DNA of 64,000 nucleotides from an uncultured Gammaproteobacteria bacterium (lineage in GTDB: Bacteria; Pseudomonadota; Gammaproteobacteria; GCA-002705445; GCA-002716945): positions 1 to 64,000 of the forward strand of contig CACOMO010000004.1 in assembly GCA_902628335.1 (NCBI GenBank), in the 5' to 3' direction. The translations under genes were made by a program, and so were the position numbers. How positions within the stretch are numbered: the stretch's first letter is position 1; each line of letters starts with the position of its first letter. Under the pieces are notes generated by a model that was not told the DNA's origin, ran no database searches, and was given only the letters and a program-made list of their open reading frames with translations. Below, piece after piece: positions 6,635 to 16,417 of the stretch.

Positions 6635-6691
6635 TGAGGCTCTAAAGGAGTGGAAACACACATAAATATTAGGAAATTGAGGAGTTTTAAT

Positions 6692-7450
6692 ATGAAAAAA
6701 TTATTTTCCTTATTCATGCCAACTGCAGTATTAGTACTTGCTCCATCACTAGCTTTTGCTGGTGATTTACAAGCTAATGACCTTGTAGGTGTGACATTTT
6801 GGATTATCTCTATTGCAATGGTAGCAGCTACTGTATTCTTCCTTATGGAGAGAAGTAGAGTGTCTGGCAAATGGCAAACATCTTTGTCAATTATGTCACT
6901 AGTAACACTTATCGCTGCTGTGCATTATTTTTATATGAGGGAAGTCTGGGTTGATACCGGTGCTTCTCCAACAGTATTCAGATATATTGACTGGGTATTA
7001 ACTGTACCGCTACAAATGATTGAATTCTATTTAATACTTGCAGCAGTAACAGCAGTAAGCGCAGGTGTCTTCTGGAGACTACTAGTCGGTACACTTGTCA
7101 TGCTTATCGCAGGATACGCAGGTGAAGCTGGTATAATCAGCCCAGTACTTGGATTCATTGTAGGTATGGCTGGTTGGTTTTATATTTTATATGAAATCTT
7201 TATGGGTGAAGCTGGCACTGTAAGTGCATCAGTCAGCGCCGCAGCACAATCGGCATTCTCAGCATGTAGAATGGTAGTTCTTGTCGGATGGGCAATCTAC
7301 CCTGCTGGTTATCTATTCGGCTACTTAATGGGTGGAGTAGATCCTGCAAGTCTTAACCTAATCTATAACTTAGCAGACTTCGTGAACAAGATCGCATTTG
7401 GTGTGTTCATCTGGTCAGCTGCCGTTTCAGATTCAGCACAAACTGCATAA
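6692..7450 (+). CDS. Proteorhodopsin, blue-absorbing type proton pump
   Basis: 252 residues: cleavable signal (about 1-23, ending AFAG) and seven membrane helices. Retinal is bound through the Schiff-base lysine K233 in helix G (NKIAFG). The carboxylates of an outward proton pump are present: D100 (acceptor, D97 in the green reference protein) and E111 (donor, E108), plus H78 (H75). The spectral tuning position holds Q108, matching Gln105 of blue-absorbing forms rather than Leu of green forms. The start at 6692 is chosen because GAGGAG lies 7 bases before it; an upstream in-frame ATG at 6650 has none and would spoil the signal peptide. It heads the retinal operon. Confidence 0.96.
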   Translation: MKKLFSLFMPTAVLVLAPSLAFAGDLQANDLVGVTFWIISIAMVAATVFFLMERSRVSGKWQTSLSIMSLVTLIAAVHYFYMREVWVDTGASPTVFRYIDWVLTVPLQMIEFYLILAAVTAVSAGVFWRLLVGTLVMLIAGYAGEAGIISPVLGFIVGMAGWFYILYEIFMGEAGTVSASVSAAAQSAFSACRMVVLVGWAIYPAGYLFGYLMGGVDPASLNLIYNLADFVNKIAFGVFIWSAAVSDSAQTA

Positions 7451-7461
7451 TTTGAACAATT

Positions 7462-7493
7462 ACATGGGGCTCTATCTAGAGTCCCATGTTTTT
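7462..7493 (+). terminator. Hairpin terminator between proteorhodopsin and crtI
   Basis: An 11-base-pair stem (ACATGGGGCTC pairing with GAGTCCCATGT, one G-T wobble) closes a 6-base loop and runs into TTTTT. It lies 11 bases after the proteorhodopsin stop and ends 8 bases before crtI. No promoter is obvious between it and crtI, so it probably acts as a partial terminator that makes far more opsin mRNA than carotenoid-enzyme mRNA. Confidence 0.85.
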
Positions 7494-7501
7494 AATTTCC
7501 A

Positions 7502-8977
7502 ATGAAAAAAGCAATAGTAATAGGCTCAGGCTTCGGAGGCCTGGCAATAGCTTGCAGACTTCGCAAAAAAAATTTTGATGTAACAATACTCGAGAAACAG
7601 TCAAATTTTGGTGGGAGAGCAAGAGCATTAGAGCATAATGGGTTTATCTATGATGCTGGTCCTACTGTTATTACTGCTCCGTACCTTATAGAAGAATTAT
7701 TTACTATGCATAACAAAAACTGGAGTGATTATTATGAATTACTTCGAGTGAAGCCGTATTACAGATTTATTTTCTCTGATCATACATATTTTGACTATGG
7801 AGACAACTTAAGGGAAATGATTAGACAGATAGAAGAAAAATATTCAAGAACAGATGCTAAAGGATATATCAAGCTGCTCAAATTATCCAAGAGAATATTT
7901 AAAACAGCATACGAAGAGTTGTCGGACAAACCATTTAAAACACTTCAGAGCATGCTCCCATATCTACCTGAATTGTTGAGAATAAAATTTTATAAATCAG
8001 TGTATGCTTCAGTCGAATCGCATATTGATAATGAGAATCTTGTGAAGGCACTTAGTATGCACCCACTCCTTATAGGAGGGAATCCCTATACGACGACATC
8101 AATTTACTTGCTTATACAATATCTAGAATGGAAATGGGGAGTTTATTACGCAAAAGGTGGAACGAGATCTATTGTTGCTGGCTTAGAGCAGCTTTTAAAT
8201 GAGATCGGCGTTAACTGTATCAAAAATATTGAGGTTGAGTCTATATCATCTAGGAATAATTCTGTTACAGAAGTTCATACAAGCGAGGGAAATTATGACG
8301 CCGATTTAGTGGTTAGTAATGCTGACCCAACTACATTTTATAAGACTGTGATTAAACGAAATCCTAAAAAGTTATCAAATAAACCAGCTGTTTTAAAGCA
8401 TTCAATGAGCTTATTTGTATTATATTTTTCGACGAAAAAAATTTACGAAAATGTTCAGCATCATACGATAATATTTAACAAAAGGCACAAATCATTATTG
8501 ACAGATATCTTTAATAAGAAAAATCCTATAGATGACCCAAGCCTTTATCTTCACAGACCACTTAAAACAGATCCATCAGGTCAGCAGCAAAACTCTGATT
8601 CTTTTTATGTTTTAGCGCCAGTAGCAAACAATCAAAGCAAGATTGATTGGAATAAAGTAGGAGAAAAATTTAGTAAAGTTGTTTTTGATATGCTTGATGA
8701 ATATATATTACCAGATGTAAAAGAAAATCTTGTTGATCATTTTTTTGTTACACCTGATTACTTTGAAAAAGAACTTAATACTTATGCTGGGAGTGGGTTC
8801 GGAATTCAACCGATTTTTAGACAATCAGCATATTTTAGATACTCAAATAAGTCTAAAGAATATGATAATCTATATTTTGTAGGCGCGAGTACTCATCCAG
8901 GAGCTGGAGTACCTGGTGTGATATCCACAGCAAAAGCAACAGAAAAACTTATACTGGAAGACTATGACATCAACTGA
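7502..8977 (+). CDS. crtI: Phytoene desaturase
   Basis: 491 residues of the CrtI-type FAD oxidoreductases, converting phytoene to lycopene by four desaturations at the membrane. The N-terminal Rossmann motif is VIGSGFGGLAIACRL followed by ILEKQ and GGRA. The C-terminal family signature GASTHPGAGVPGV is intact near residue 460. Length is normal. It begins 8 bases after the terminator behind proteorhodopsin and overlaps crtB by 14 bases, so crtI-crtB-crtY-blh form one coupled unit. No good Shine-Dalgarno precedes the ATG. Confidence 0.95.
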   Translation: MKKAIVIGSGFGGLAIACRLRKKNFDVTILEKQSNFGGRARALEHNGFIYDAGPTVITAPYLIEELFTMHNKNWSDYYELLRVKPYYRFIFSDHTYFDYGDNLREMIRQIEEKYSRTDAKGYIKLLKLSKRIFKTAYEELSDKPFKTLQSMLPYLPELLRIKFYKSVYASVESHIDNENLVKALSMHPLLIGGNPYTTTSIYLLIQYLEWKWGVYYAKGGTRSIVAGLEQLLNEIGVNCIKNIEVESISSRNNSVTEVHTSEGNYDADLVVSNADPTTFYKTVIKRNPKKLSNKPAVLKHSMSLFVLYFSTKKIYENVQHHTIIFNKRHKSLLTDIFNKKNPIDDPSLYLHRPLKTDPSGQQQNSDSFYVLAPVANNQSKIDWNKVGEKFSKVVFDMLDEYILPDVKENLVDHFFVTPDYFEKELNTYAGSGFGIQPIFRQSAYFRYSNKSKEYDNLYFVGASTHPGAGVPGVISTAKATEKLILEDYDIN

Positions 8978-9797
8978 AAATTATGCAATCCTCAAAGAAA
9001 ACAGCAAAACTTTTTATTTAGCATCCTCATTTCTGCCGGCAAGAGTAAGATATAAAGTTCTAAATGTTTACGCATTTTGTAGAAAGTATGATGATAGCGC
9101 AGACAGCGATATAAAAATCCATAATCCTGATATAGATAAAATTATCTCAGATCTTAATATAAGTAATGAAATTATAAATCAACTTAAAATAGGTATAGAC
9201 TCGGATAGGAATTTCAAAAGACTAAAAAAAATTGATGATTTGATAGTATACTCATATAGGGTGGCTGGTTGTGTTGGATTGATGATGTGTGAGTTGCTAG
9301 ATATTAAGAATTCTAACGATAAATACTATGCGATAGATCTTGGAATAGCTATGCAAATCACAAATATTTGCAGAGATGTATTTGAGGATTTAAATATGGA
9401 TAGGATATATCTACCGGAAGAAATGATAACAAATATTGAAGTAAATACGGAAGATGAAAAAGATGAGCTATTCACTATAATTACAAATTTAATAGAAATA
9501 TCAGAGCAATACTATAATAGCGCCTTACATGGAATAAAAAAAATCCCTTTCGGATCCAGATTCTCTATACTAATATCGTTGAGATTATACCAAGCGATTG
9601 GTAGGAAAATACTAAAGAATCGCAAAAATTACTTTATTAAAAAAATACACACCACTAAATTCGAGAAATTCATTATTCTCCTGAAATGCTTAGTAGAATT
9701 TACAGTTTCACACACATTTGATAAGAAAAAACAAACACATGATCAGGAGCTACATTTGGCTCTCTCTAATTTACCATTTACAAATGGAAAAGTATGA
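8964..9797 (+). CDS. crtB: Phytoene synthase
   Basis: 277 residues of the squalene/phytoene synthase family, which condenses two geranylgeranyl diphosphates to phytoene. The first aspartate-rich region is the DDSADSD segment after AFCRKYDD (about residue 43), and the second is RDVFED inside AMQITNICRDVFED near residue 140, which bind the diphosphate through Mg. The typical VAGCVGLM segment is present. It overlaps crtI at the 5' end and crtY at the 3' end by 14 bases each. GGPP must come from a prenyltransferase encoded elsewhere, since no crtE is in this window. Confidence 0.94.
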   Translation: MTSTENYAILKENSKTFYLASSFLPARVRYKVLNVYAFCRKYDDSADSDIKIHNPDIDKIISDLNISNEIINQLKIGIDSDRNFKRLKKIDDLIVYSYRVAGCVGLMMCELLDIKNSNDKYYAIDLGIAMQITNICRDVFEDLNMDRIYLPEEMITNIEVNTEDEKDELFTIITNLIEISEQYYNSALHGIKKIPFGSRFSILISLRLYQAIGRKILKNRKNYFIKKIHTTKFEKFIILLKCLVEFTVSHTFDKKKQTHDQELHLALSNLPFTNGKV

Positions 9798-10893
9798 TAT
9801 TGCAATTATTGGCGCAGGCTGTGCAGGCTTGAGCCTAGCCTATAAGCTTATTGATTCTGGATTAACTGTATGTGTACTTGAAAAATTCTCTAGAACAGAA
9901 CGGATCAGGAAGACTTGGTCATATTGGAAGAATGACTCACATCCTTTTGATAAACTGGAATCGAACTCTTATAATAGTTTAGAAGTAAGACACAAAGATA
10001 CTACTCAACTAGATTGTAGCAAATATAATTATGTATCAATTGATTCAAAAGACTTTGATGATTTTATTATACCTCAACTAGATGAGTCTGCTAACATTGA
10101 ACTAGTATTTAGTAGTGATATAAAGAAAATTAATAAAGTGAATACGCATTATAATGTTGAAGTAGACAGTAAAAATATATCAGTACAACATATCTTTGAC
10201 AGCCGTAACGAGAGCATTAACGCAAGTCTATATCAAGTCTTTCATGGATATTTTATAAAATTAAATAACTATAAAACGGTGACACCGAAACTTATGGATT
10301 TTACAGATTCCAAAGATTTTCATTTCTTCTATGTATTACCTAAAGATGATGGGTCAATTCTTGTTGAATCTACATATTTCTCTCCAAAAATATATGATAA
10401 AAATGAAATGACCGATGCTATTAAAGCGTATATAAAAGATAACATATCTGATGATTACGAAATAATTAGAACAGAATATGGTGTAATACCTATGACTTCA
10501 ATTGAACCAAAAGTATATAATGAGATAAATAGAATTGGTATAAGTGCTGGAGCTACAAGGTCATCTACTGGGTACACATTTATGAATATTCAAAGACACA
10601 CAGATTATATAGCGAACCATCTAAAGAAAATTCCAACAAACAACCCGTTGAGAACTATAAGATGGAAGATACTCAGAAAAATGGATCATGTGCTGCTAAA
10701 AATTATATATAATAAACCGAGCATCAGTAAAGATATAATGTTCAACTTGTTTAAGAATAATAATTCGAACTCTGTGATTAGATTTCTATCCGATACACCC
10801 TCTATTACCGATATTCTGAAGATTATATTTAATATGCCGAAATTGATTTTTATAAATTATGCAATCAGAACAATCTTTAGTAAAAAAATTTGA
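9784..10893 (+). CDS. crtY: Lycopene beta-cyclase
   Basis: 369 residues of the CrtY family, FAD-containing, cyclising both ends of lycopene to give beta-carotene. The nucleotide-binding motif is YDIAIIGAGCAGLS right at the start, followed by VLEK; TWSYW near residue 45 is the family's aromatic segment; GATRSSTGYTF near residue 260 is the C-terminal substrate/FAD region. The ATG at 9784 is chosen because it puts the Rossmann motif at residue 4; a longer frame open from 9718 lies inside crtB and adds non-homologous residues. It overlaps blh by 35 bases. Confidence 0.93.
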   Translation: MEKYDIAIIGAGCAGLSLAYKLIDSGLTVCVLEKFSRTERIRKTWSYWKNDSHPFDKLESNSYNSLEVRHKDTTQLDCSKYNYVSIDSKDFDDFIIPQLDESANIELVFSSDIKKINKVNTHYNVEVDSKNISVQHIFDSRNESINASLYQVFHGYFIKLNNYKTVTPKLMDFTDSKDFHFFYVLPKDDGSILVESTYFSPKIYDKNEMTDAIKAYIKDNISDDYEIIRTEYGVIPMTSIEPKVYNEINRIGISAGATRSSTGYTFMNIQRHTDYIANHLKKIPTNNPLRTIRWKILRKMDHVLLKIIYNKPSISKDIMFNLFKNNNSNSVIRFLSDTPSITDILKIIFNMPKLIFINYAIRTIFSKKI

Positions 10894-11758
10894 AAATATA
10901 CAATTAGTTTTGTTAATTAACTTATGTATATTAAGCATTATTATATTCTTCCTATATCCTGCTGTTTTCAATTATTATTTCCAGTACTACTCTCTTATAA
11001 CACTTGTTGCCATAGTTGGCCTCCCACATGGATTTTTTGACTATTCGATTGCAAAGAAATTATTCAGCTCTATAACTAGCTGGCTTCTATTATTTACAGT
11101 TGGTTATGTAACTATCTCTCTTGTTTACTTTATTGCTTGGAACTACATACCGCTAGTCTCTCTAATTCTCTTTTTGATACTCGCAATGTATCACTTTGGT
11201 ATGGAAGAATTAGCACACAAAAAATATTCAGAAATGTCGATTACTGATATTTTAATCCTTGGATCTATACCAGTTGTCTTCCCTGTGATATTTCACACTA
11301 ATGAAGTCTTTATCATATTTGAACAGATAATAAGTCAAGAACTTAATGTGATTGAGATCAATAAGGGTCTTTCATTATTCTACTTTTTTCTTGTCATATT
11401 TAAGTTCTATTCAAATGGCTTTGTAAGGTTCCTACCCTATCTATTTTTAATCCCATCATACATCCTACTGCCACCATTAATTTCATTTATTCTATATTTC
11501 TGTTTTCATCACTCCCTAAAACACTATATTGTGTCTATTTATGAGGAGAAGCTAGTACCCGAGATTTTCTCAATGAAATCGTTTCTTGTAACAATTGTTA
11601 TTGCATCAATTATTTTTACTGCTTTTGTTGTTGGCATGCTAGTTAATTATAGTAGTTATACAATTGATATAATAATTGTAAAATACACATTTATTCTTCT
11701 AGCATGCCTCACTCTCCCACACTTGCTGCTAAATATTTTTTACGAAACTAAAAAATAA
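10859..11758 (+). CDS. blh: Beta-carotene 15,15'-dioxygenase, Brp/Blh family
   Basis: 299 residues with about eight membrane helices. It cleaves beta-carotene centrally to two retinals, giving the proteorhodopsin chromophore. The conserved iron-ligand histidine segments are visible: GLPHGFFDY near residue 58, MYHFGMEE near residue 117, and FHHSLKHY near residue 220. The start lies 35 bases inside the end of crtY, so it is the last member of the coupled cluster. Its presence shows that this cell can make its own retinal, provided that GGPP is available. The gene abuts the converging peroxiredoxin gene with no spacer. Confidence 0.94.
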   Translation: MQSEQSLVKKFENIQLVLLINLCILSIIIFFLYPAVFNYYFQYYSLITLVAIVGLPHGFFDYSIAKKLFSSITSWLLLFTVGYVTISLVYFIAWNYIPLVSLILFLILAMYHFGMEELAHKKYSEMSITDILILGSIPVVFPVIFHTNEVFIIFEQIISQELNVIEINKGLSLFYFFLVIFKFYSNGFVRFLPYLFLIPSYILLPPLISFILYFCFHHSLKHYIVSIYEEKLVPEIFSMKSFLVTIVIASIIFTAFVVGMLVNYSSYTIDIIIVKYTFILLACLTLPHLLLNIFYETKK

Positions 11759-13826: not shown

Positions 13827-14324
13827 TTATAGTAAATCAATTACTTCTTTATTTTTTGGTCTAACGATAAATATAGGACTGATAGGATAAATATCTTCTT
13901 TATTTGTAGTAAAATTTGAGAACACGCATGGTGGAAAATTACTCACATTCAGACCAGCAAAATCAGATATCAATGTCGATATACCAGGATTGTGCCCGAC
14001 AACTAAAATAGATTGAACGTTATATCTCTTGATTACTTCAAGTATTGTTTTCTTTGAGGCGTTATATAGCTCATCCAGATAATTTATATCATGAAACGAA
14101 TCTGTAGAATGGCCTTTGATAATTGTCAGTGTCTCTCTCGTTCTATCGGAAGTGGAACACAGTGTAAGATCGAAGCGTATTTTATTATCACGTATATACT
14201 TTGCTAATATAGAGGCATCCTCCTTGCCTGTATCTGATAAAGGTCTACTATGGTCATCAATGAGTGGGTTCATTGGTGATTCTGCATGACGTAAAAGATA
14301 AATATTCAACGATTTAGACTCCAA
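13827..14324 (-). CDS. sixA: Histidine phosphatase, SixA type
   Basis: 165 residues of the histidine phosphatase superfamily. The catalytic RHAES motif is near residue 12, the second Arg in CSTSDRTRET, and the second His in VVGHNPG near residue 120. The short length without a lid domain matches SixA, which dephosphorylates phosphohistidine proteins. The apparent start is TTG at 14324; the next ATG lies after the RHG motif and cannot be used. The C-terminal segment (ISPIFIVRP) is normal. Cellular target is not evident. Confidence 0.82.
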   Translation of the reverse strand: MESKSLNIYLLRHAESPMNPLIDDHSRPLSDTGKEDASILAKYIRDNKIRFDLTLCSTSDRTRETLTIIKGHSTDSFHDINYLDELYNASKKTILEVIKRYNVQSILVVGHNPGISTLISDFAGLNVSNFPPCVFSNFTTNKEDIYPISPIFIVRPKNKEVIDLL

Positions 14325-14419
14325 TTTTAATTATTCTTCTGTTTAAAGTATTACATGGGTATAGACATATTTCATTATTAGGTATAGATTGAGAATAGAC
14401 TAATTAAAAAGAGGCTGTT

Positions 14420-14566
14420 ATGACAGAACAGATGGATGCAGTTGAGACTTGTTGTAAATACACTTGCTGTGCAGATGGTTGTTGTAGTGATGGTTGCAAA
14501 ACTGGGGAGTGTAGCAGTACCTGTTGCAGTGATGGTTGTTGTGACGACTCCGATAATTGTTGTTAA
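14420..14566 (+). CDS. Small cysteine-rich peptide, metallothionein-like
   Basis: A 48-residue frame with 14 cysteines, 12 of them in six CC pairs, plus single Cys at 26 and 31. Cys make up 29 percent of the protein; the rest is mostly Asp, Ser, Gly, Thr and there is almost no hydrophobic residue. CCADGC and CCSDGC units recur about every 5-14 residues. There is no signal peptide. GAGG lies 5 bases before the ATG, so it should be translated well. It stands alone on the plus strand between two leftward genes (sixA, glmS). Zinc or copper binding as a metallothionein is the natural inference; I do not recognise a named family. Confidence 0.75.
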   Translation: MTEQMDAVETCCKYTCCADGCCSDGCKTGECSSTCCSDGCCDDSDNCC

Positions 14567-14590: not shown

Positions 14591-16417
14591 TTACTCCACC
14601 GTGACTGATTTAGCTAAATTCCTTGGCTGATCAATGTTTGTTTTTTTCTCAATTGCAACATAGTATGAGAGTAATTGCATTGGTATTACATAGACTAAAG
14701 GAGATACAAAATGCCCGCATGATGGCATATTAATCACGTTAGTTTTATCTGTCTTTGAGCTAGATAGTTTTTTGTTTGTGAATATATACACTAAACCTTG
14801 TCTTGCCCTAACTTCTGCAAGATTTGATAATACTTGATTGACCAAATTATTATCCGGCATTAATCCAATTACAGGGAGGTTTTTGTCTACTAAGGCTAGT
14901 GGACCATGTTTTAGCTCGCCTGCCGCATAACCCTCTGCATGAATATAGGTGATCTCTTTTAATTTCAGTGCTGCCTCTAGGGCAATTGGATAGGAGACGC
15001 CTCTTCCTAGAAATAGAGTGTGTTTTTTGTTTTTAAAATTCTTGGCTATTTTTTTTATCTCTTTTTCAAGTAAAAATGTTTTTTTAATTATTGCTGGTAG
15101 TGCCTTCACTTGCTTGAGAATAGTTTTCTCGATCGTTTTATTCTTGGATGTCCTTGAGAGTACCATTGTCATAAATAAAAGTGCAATGAGTTGTGAGGTA
15201 AAAGCTTTAGTTGATGCAACGCTAATTTCAGGACCTGCATGTGTAAGATATACGAGATCAGATAGGCGTGTAATTGAGCTCTCTGGTACATTACAAATTG
15301 ATAATATCGAACAATAGTTTCTATTCTTTGCCTTTTTAAGCGAATAGATCGTATCTGCAGTCTCACCAGATTGACTTATAGCAACAAACAATGTACCAGG
15401 CGGTACATTAACTGTTCTATATCTATACTCACTAGCTATCTCAGCAGTACAAACAATATCAGTAATCTCTTCGATCCAATACTTAGCAATCAAAGCAGCA
15501 TTGTAACTAGTCCCACATGCAACAAAGTGAATATGTTTTGTTTTTAATAAAAGTTTATCTGAATTCGGGCCAAATATATTAGGTAACAAACCTTTTTTTC
15601 CAATTTGGTGTTTAATTGCATTACTTATAATTTCTTGCTGCTCATAAATTTCTTTTTGCATGAAATGTTTATAACCGTTTTTATTTATTTCAGAAGTTTG
15701 TTTTTTTGCTTTTGTTTGTTTTCTAGATATTTTTCTACCTGTGAAATTGTAAATTTTATAATCAGTACTATTTAATTCCACAATCTCATTATCTTGTAGA
15801 GGTACATAAGTGTCAGTAGTTTCAGACAACGCGTGAATGTCTGAGGATATAAAATTACTTCCTTTCTTTGTTCCTATTAGAAGAGGGCTTCCATTGCAAG
15901 CTGCGAGTAGATGATCAGGCCATCTTTCACAGATTGCAGCTATGGCAAATGACCCATTGAGTTTCTTAGCTACTCGCTTCATTGCTTCGACACCATCCGA
16001 TGATCTCTCAGCATAGTATGAAAATAAGTGTGCAATAACTTCAGAGTCAGTATCAGATGTAAATTTATAGTTCTTCTTCTTCAGATATACCTTGAGCTCA
16101 TCTGAATTCTCGATTATACCGTTATGAACAATAGATACTTTGGATGAATTATGAGGATGAGAATTTTTGAGTATAGGTTGCCCATGGGTAGCCCATCTCG
16201 TGTGTGCAATCCCACAGAAACCTGATGATCGTGATGAATTAAGAATTCTTTTTAAATTCTTTACTTTACCAACACACCTGACCCTTTTTATTTTTTGACG
16301 ACCTGTAATAATAGAAATGCCTGCTGAATCATAGCCCCTATATTCAAGCTTAGAAAGACCGCTTATGAGCGAACCTTGTATTTCTGATTTGGATACTGCA
16401 CCAAATATGCCACACAT
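14591..16417 (-). CDS. glmS: Glutamine-fructose-6-phosphate aminotransferase
   Basis: 608 residues. The N-terminal glutaminase domain begins MCGIFGAV with nucleophile Cys2, and two SIS sugar isomerase domains follow (GTSYNAA near residue 300 and GRGVSYPIA near 470), ending with the conserved KSVTVE tail. It makes glucosamine 6-phosphate, first step of UDP-GlcNAc synthesis for peptidoglycan and lipid A. It starts in the glmU stop codon (TAATG), so both are translationally coupled and belong to one pathway. No glmS ribozyme is seen, as expected for this group. Confidence 0.97.
   Translation of the reverse strand: MCGIFGAVSKSEIQGSLISGLSKLEYRGYDSAGISIITGRQKIKRVRCVGKVKNLKRILNSSRSSGFCGIAHTRWATHGQPILKNSHPHNSSKVSIVHNGIIENSDELKVYLKKKNYKFTSDTDSEVIAHLFSYYAERSSDGVEAMKRVAKKLNGSFAIAAICERWPDHLLAACNGSPLLIGTKKGSNFISSDIHALSETTDTYVPLQDNEIVELNSTDYKIYNFTGRKISRKQTKAKKQTSEINKNGYKHFMQKEIYEQQEIISNAIKHQIGKKGLLPNIFGPNSDKLLLKTKHIHFVACGTSYNAALIAKYWIEEITDIVCTAEIASEYRYRTVNVPPGTLFVAISQSGETADTIYSLKKAKNRNYCSILSICNVPESSITRLSDLVYLTHAGPEISVASTKAFTSQLIALLFMTMVLSRTSKNKTIEKTILKQVKALPAIIKKTFLLEKEIKKIAKNFKNKKHTLFLGRGVSYPIALEAALKLKEITYIHAEGYAAGELKHGPLALVDKNLPVIGLMPDNNLVNQVLSNLAEVRARQGLVYIFTNKKLSSSKTDKTNVINMPSCGHFVSPLVYVIPMQLLSYYVAIEKKTNIDQPRNLAKSVTVE

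Follow-up and report, generated by a model that had tools for sequence, protein, structure and literature searches.

We found that the short open reading frame (ORF) at positions 14420-14566 of the window, the whole 64,000-nucleotide stretch of DNA from an uncultured gammaproteobacterium analysed here, is a real and conserved gene, and that its product, a 48-residue peptide, is probably metallothionein-like and cytosolic, representing a sequence family that is new, as judged from its sequence. The peptide family is undescribed in the libraries and papers that we searched. The coordinates of the gene, its parts and its neighbours are collected in Table 1.

Table 1. Features of the peptide locus in the window
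Feature	Coordinates	Strand	Remarks
ORF of the 14-Cys, 48-residue peptide, stop codon included	14420..14566	+	Conserved frame and strong purifying selection, 54 aligned members
Shine-Dalgarno GAGG, 5 nt before ATG	14411..14414	+	From the sequence; most members have a purine-rich site preceding the start
Upstream region shared within the genus, from -60 to the ATG	14360..14419	+	L001-L004 match begins at -60, flanks differ
Seven pentad units, Cys at unit position 1 (C11, C16, C21, C26, C31, C36, C41)	14450..14554	+	Each Cys found in 51-54 of 54 members; direct repeats at 15-nt spacing in the DNA
C-terminal NCC	14555..14563	+	C47 and C48 kept by 53 and 50 of the 54 members, respectively
SixA-like histidine phosphatase, divergent, upstream neighbour (context only)	13827..14324	-	Passes Pfam His_Phos_1
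glmS, convergent, 24 bp downstream of the peptide ORF (context only)	14591..16417	-	Gene content on the 3' side varies within the family

The translation of the ORF is MTEQMDAVETCCKYTCCADGCCSDGCKTGECSSTCCSDGCCDDSDNCC, with Cys at positions 11, 12, 16, 17, 21, 22, 26, 31, 35, 36, 40, 41, 47 and 48, that is, six CC pairs along with C26 and C31. The initial annotation had described 14 cysteines at these same places in 48 residues, preceded by a GAGG Shine-Dalgarno sequence, and the translation and the upstream sequence agree with it on each of these points. Cysteine makes up 29% of the peptide, which further includes 10 acidic and 2 basic residues, a single aromatic residue (Tyr) and no His, a composition within the range of metallothioneins, which are short, consist of about 15-35% Cys and contain few or no aromatic residues. 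Given the six-frame Cys frequency of the window (3.1%), the probability of finding at least 14 Cys in 48 residues is 1.3e-10 per position. In 60 Markov-simulated windows, the maximum was 9 Cys per 48 open residues, and the second most Cys-rich open stretch of the window itself contains 7 Cys in 30 residues.

The reading frame is under strong purifying selection. In a codon alignment of 54 members with the window copy as the reference, the synonymous difference between this copy and most of the other members is 0.55-1.1 of sites, compared with a nonsynonymous difference of 0.07-0.20, which rises to 0.28-0.32 for the three most divergent members. A closer copy (L011) differs from that in the window by 9 synonymous and 2 nonsynonymous changes, and, across the alignment, TGT and TGC replace each other as Cys codons (494 and 251 occurrences, respectively) with no Cys being lost. 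Loss of the frame in close relatives, or lack of purifying selection, had been named at the outset as the outcomes that would overturn the initial reading; the frame is kept in relatives, and the codon alignment reveals the selection. An antisense ORF was rejected as the true gene because selection acts on the Cys frame, and a cluster of ORFs recurring near the peptide copies proved to be, in part, an antisense artefact of the peptide gene. An RNA element at this locus was rejected as well, given the protein-type substitution pattern and no Rfam match of note.

The periodicity first noticed in this peptide, CC followed by three residues, takes a fuller form in the alignment, namely, a seven-unit pentad repeat with a Cys at every fifth residue. 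A second Cys occupies position 2 in units 1-3 and position 5 in units 5-6. These partner cysteines, together with those of the C-terminus (12, 17, 22, 35, 40, 47 and 48), are kept in 50-54 of the 54 members; the three members that lack C11 are all gapped at that position. The six CC pairs are conserved in nearly all of the 54 members and represent one of the types of Cys clusters (CC, CxC, CxxC) that mark metallothioneins, although CxC is absent from every member examined. His is missing altogether in 44 of the 54. Three members (L034, L040, L077) lack exactly one five-residue unit, a loss easier to reconcile with a modular scaffold than with an active site, and the divergent copies L043, L049 and L050 retain units 1-3 and 5-6, with unit 4 shortened. 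At one locus (L024), an additional paralogue of reduced length lies at a distance of 1.5 kb. As a separate observation, the gene copies at L080, L083 and L051 are degenerate or truncated, showing signs of decay. AlphaFold2, run without metal, yielded no confident fold for the peptide (pLDDT 57, pTM 0.27), as would be expected for an apo-metallothionein, although such a low-confidence model is not specific to one.

No family match was identified in Pfam, NCBIfam, PHROGs or PDB. Among the 28 members searched, none matched a Pfam or NCBIfam metallothionein profile at E <= 10, and weak matches to Keratin and Conotoxin were rejected as reflecting composition. A full-text literature search retrieved no paper naming metallothionein together with SAR116, the order that contributes many of the copies described below.

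Composition, the invariant spacing of the cysteines, modularity, the lack of an obvious signal peptide and the lack of partner genes together lead us to read the product as a metal-thiolate protein. The N-terminus, MTEQMDAVET, is polar and, by inspection, without a hydrophobic stretch, which suggests a cytosolic location. In the reducing cytosol, the 14 thiols of the seven pentads would wrap several soft or borderline metal ions; the pentads, which offer C or CC per five residues with small or acidic spacers (ADG, SDG, TGE), would form one or more metal-thiolate clusters. The protein would then buffer, sequester or store metal, with Zn(II)/Cd(II) as the most likely ions and Cu(I) as a possible one, and the benefit to small-genome marine bacteria may lie in detoxification or storage. 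The metallothionein-like composition recognized in the initial annotation is borne out by the Cys content and the conserved CC pairs, and so is its remark that the peptide is unlike the BmtA type, given that there is no metallothionein profile match, no CxC and no His in the window peptide. We count against the metallothionein reading the lack of homology to any known metallothionein and the absence from all members of CxC, which is typical of many of these proteins.

The alternative that fares best after this reading is a thiol, redox or sulfur reserve, in which free cysteines would scavenge oxidants or store Cys, with metal binding being incidental. Such a role would suit a very Cys-rich peptide without partner genes, but a pure store has no need for the invariant Cys spacing and the pentad register kept across the 54 members, and we consider it unlikely.

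A further alternative, a ribosomally synthesized and post-translationally modified peptide (RiPP) precursor, was taken seriously because NCBIfam holds a “Cys-every-fifth RiPP peptide”, CefA (NF038108), which, going by the family name, shares with the pentads a Cys at every fifth residue. The best-scoring member, the divergent L049, reached 7.8 bits against CefA (E = 3), below the cut-off of 30, and the other 27 of the 28 aligned members had no CefA match. There is no conserved leader; the pattern is the reverse, with an N-terminus of about 10 residues that varies among members and a conserved Cys part. No neighbouring family recurs beside the gene, and within the gammaproteobacterial family of the window genome, a SPASM protein was detected in four non-carriers but in none of the four carriers of the peptide (G000, G002, G003, G010). 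In a search of these incomplete genomes for SPASM-type maturases, these were also missing from most of the other carriers, and none was recurrently adjacent to the gene. The initial suggestion of a precursor of a modified peptide is accordingly disfavoured, and we regard this possibility as very improbable.

Besides CefA, the closest known systems are metallothioneins. The Cys layout of mycobacterial MymT differs from that of the window peptide, and no family match connects the two, the likeness being that of a Cys-rich bacterial peptide. MymT is a Cu(I) metallothionein involved in copper detoxification (PMC7387436). SmtA and PflQ2 MT bind 3-4 Zn/Cd ions, PflQ2 MT through 9 Cys together with His (PMC7387436). 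The window peptide resembles SmtA, BmtA and PsdMT of cyanobacteria and Pseudomonas in being small, Cys-rich and expected to form metal-thiolate clusters, but contains 14 Cys rather than 9, in CC pairs only, with no CxC, no His and no detectable match to the Pfam or NCBIfam metallothioneins. A precedent is provided by the Tetrahymena subfamily 7a metallothioneins, which are modular, consist mostly of CC and CCC clusters in repeating C2X6 units and are tentatively assigned to Cd/Zn (PMC1808422). This is a resemblance of design (modular, CC-rich, short repeats), not one shown to be homology: the Tetrahymena proteins are eukaryotic and much larger, with up to 54 Cys and CXCCK ends, in contrast to the five-residue units, 48 residues and lack of CxC in the window peptide. 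By analogy with these CC-rich proteins, a preference for Zn/Cd might be tentatively proposed.

In its own genome, the gene stands alone, as originally described, with no co-directional neighbour, but the synteny with glmS persists only in some of the relatives. The upstream gene initially called sixA does encode a histidine phosphatase, although its score against the NCBIfam sixA profile, 54.8 bits, is below the cut-off of 74.5, so that “sixA-like” is the appropriate name. The peptide gene lies directly 3' of glmS in G000, G003 and G010, with other genes in between in G002; in relatives without the peptide, this site is occupied by different genes, among them ORFs resembling DNA methyltransferases. 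More generally, the atp-glmU-glmS run ends, 3' of glmS (window position 14591; L114-L130), in a spot that varies within this family, with DNA methyltransferase-like ORFs, transporters and other genes taking each other's place. In part of a second alphaproteobacterial order, the peptide is encoded no more than a few genes from glmS (L025, L029, L030, L036), and, at six other loci, near guaA (L017, L018, L020, L023, L032, L048). There is no recurrent partner gene: no Pfam family is represented more than three times in the set of 120 distinct neighbour proteins, those that do repeat being TPR and methyltransferases, and no metal-transport or metal-regulator gene recurs. Likewise, no recognised metal-responsive operator was found at the peptide gene, and both absences speak against the metallothionein reading. 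An ABM-type monooxygenase near L015, L016, L022, L034, L040 and L050 was rejected as a linked gene, being confined to SAR116 records. Separately, we observed a secreted-looking tandem-repeat protein (FDDPFTSxINEGAIGSG) 1-2 kb from the peptide in an alphaproteobacterial and a gammaproteobacterial genome (L029:7397-7867, L039:6873-7097).

In one SAR116 subclade (L042, L044-L048), two small CxxC...CxxC proteins, with no Pfam family above the cut-off, flank the peptide, one upstream that begins MSYFCSKC and carries the shared promoter, and a convergent one downstream that begins MRVRTKDCFKC. The upstream protein is encoded co-directionally just before the peptide and, in L044-L048, follows the promoter-like module that precedes the peptide itself elsewhere. 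It could be the partner of the peptide, were the latter a zinc-finger-like small regulator or a metallochaperone; however, most lineages, the window included, have no such partner next to the peptide, and 14 Cys far exceed the needs of a finger, making this role, too, highly unlikely.

Elsewhere in the window, at 6650-11758, a proteorhodopsin gene (RYIDWVLTVPLQ) is followed by crtI, crtB, crtY and a gene resembling blh, which together make up a full retinal/rhodopsin cluster, with the names assigned by sequence inspection. The Gln at the tuning position of the proteorhodopsin suggests the blue-light type.

At least 58 distinct copies of the peptide gene were identified, in its own gammaproteobacterial family, the SAR116 order, another alphaproteobacterial order and a small number of further lineages. 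Scanning about 85,000 species detected at least 38 loci, mostly titled SAR116 or Alphaproteobacteria, the others coming from TMED41 Betaproteobacteria, Gammaproteobacteria and one Magnetovibrio. Carriers account for 4 of the 25 genomes in its own family; the window genome has one copy, and G003, a metagenome-assembled genome (MAG) with 6% contamination, has two, on two contigs. By order, profile searches recovered the gene as follows: SAR116, 29 of 136 genomes; the second alphaproteobacterial order (genomes of about 1-1.4 Mb), 17 of 32; that of Magnetovibrio, 1 of 199; and that of TMED41, one strong carrier in 200. A phylum-wide sample of 398 genomes yielded the window genome and one weak match only. 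By these counts, the gene is uncommon as a whole, with most carriers falling into a few lineages. Record titles and lineages suggest that the carriers, mostly genomes from single cells and metagenomes, are marine, and, judging from the record names, many appear to be single-cell genomes; some of the rare carriers could represent misbinned MAG contigs. No copy was found in IMG/VR, INPHARED or PLSDB, the viral, phage and plasmid collections, and a phage or plasmid gene was rejected on that ground.

Upstream of the window copy, there is a weak sigma-70-like site, TAGACA (14362), a 17-nt spacer and TAGATT (ending at 14390), a match not above chance. Across genomic contexts, DNA similarity is mostly limited to the region from about -75 through the stop codon, and a promoter-like module, TTTTTAA-TGATACTTATTGCATTTATAGATTATRAT, is common to SAR116 and the second alphaproteobacterial order, well above shuffles (z 5-7). 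From the context-limited similarity and the shared module, it would seem that promoter and gene move together. A promoter common to the gammaproteobacterial lineage was rejected as chance, there being one strong pair (L001-L020) among many tested. The location at variable genome spots, 3' of glmS and near guaA, along with the patchy distribution, is probably due to horizontal movement or frequent loss. In the gene tree, one betaproteobacterial pair groups with a copy from SAR116, but a topology with a single clade for each group is not rejected by AU tests (p = 0.086 for SAR116); with so short a gene tree and this AU result, individual transfers are not proven. We consider it an even bet that a bacterial metallothionein family not described previously, with CC-pentad repeats and no CxC, spread horizontally as a promoter-plus-gene unit at variable spots in small-genome marine lineages, where it would provide intracellular metal buffering. 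The lineages involved in such spread would be SAR116, another alphaproteobacterial order, the gammaproteobacterial family of the window genome and a TMED41-type betaproteobacterium.

Metal handling in small-genome ocean heterotrophs is poorly known, and the patchy presence of the gene among relatives allows carriers to be compared naturally with non-carriers. A conserved 48-residue CC-pentad protein, simple to produce and assay, would add a new design to the bacterial metallothioneins.
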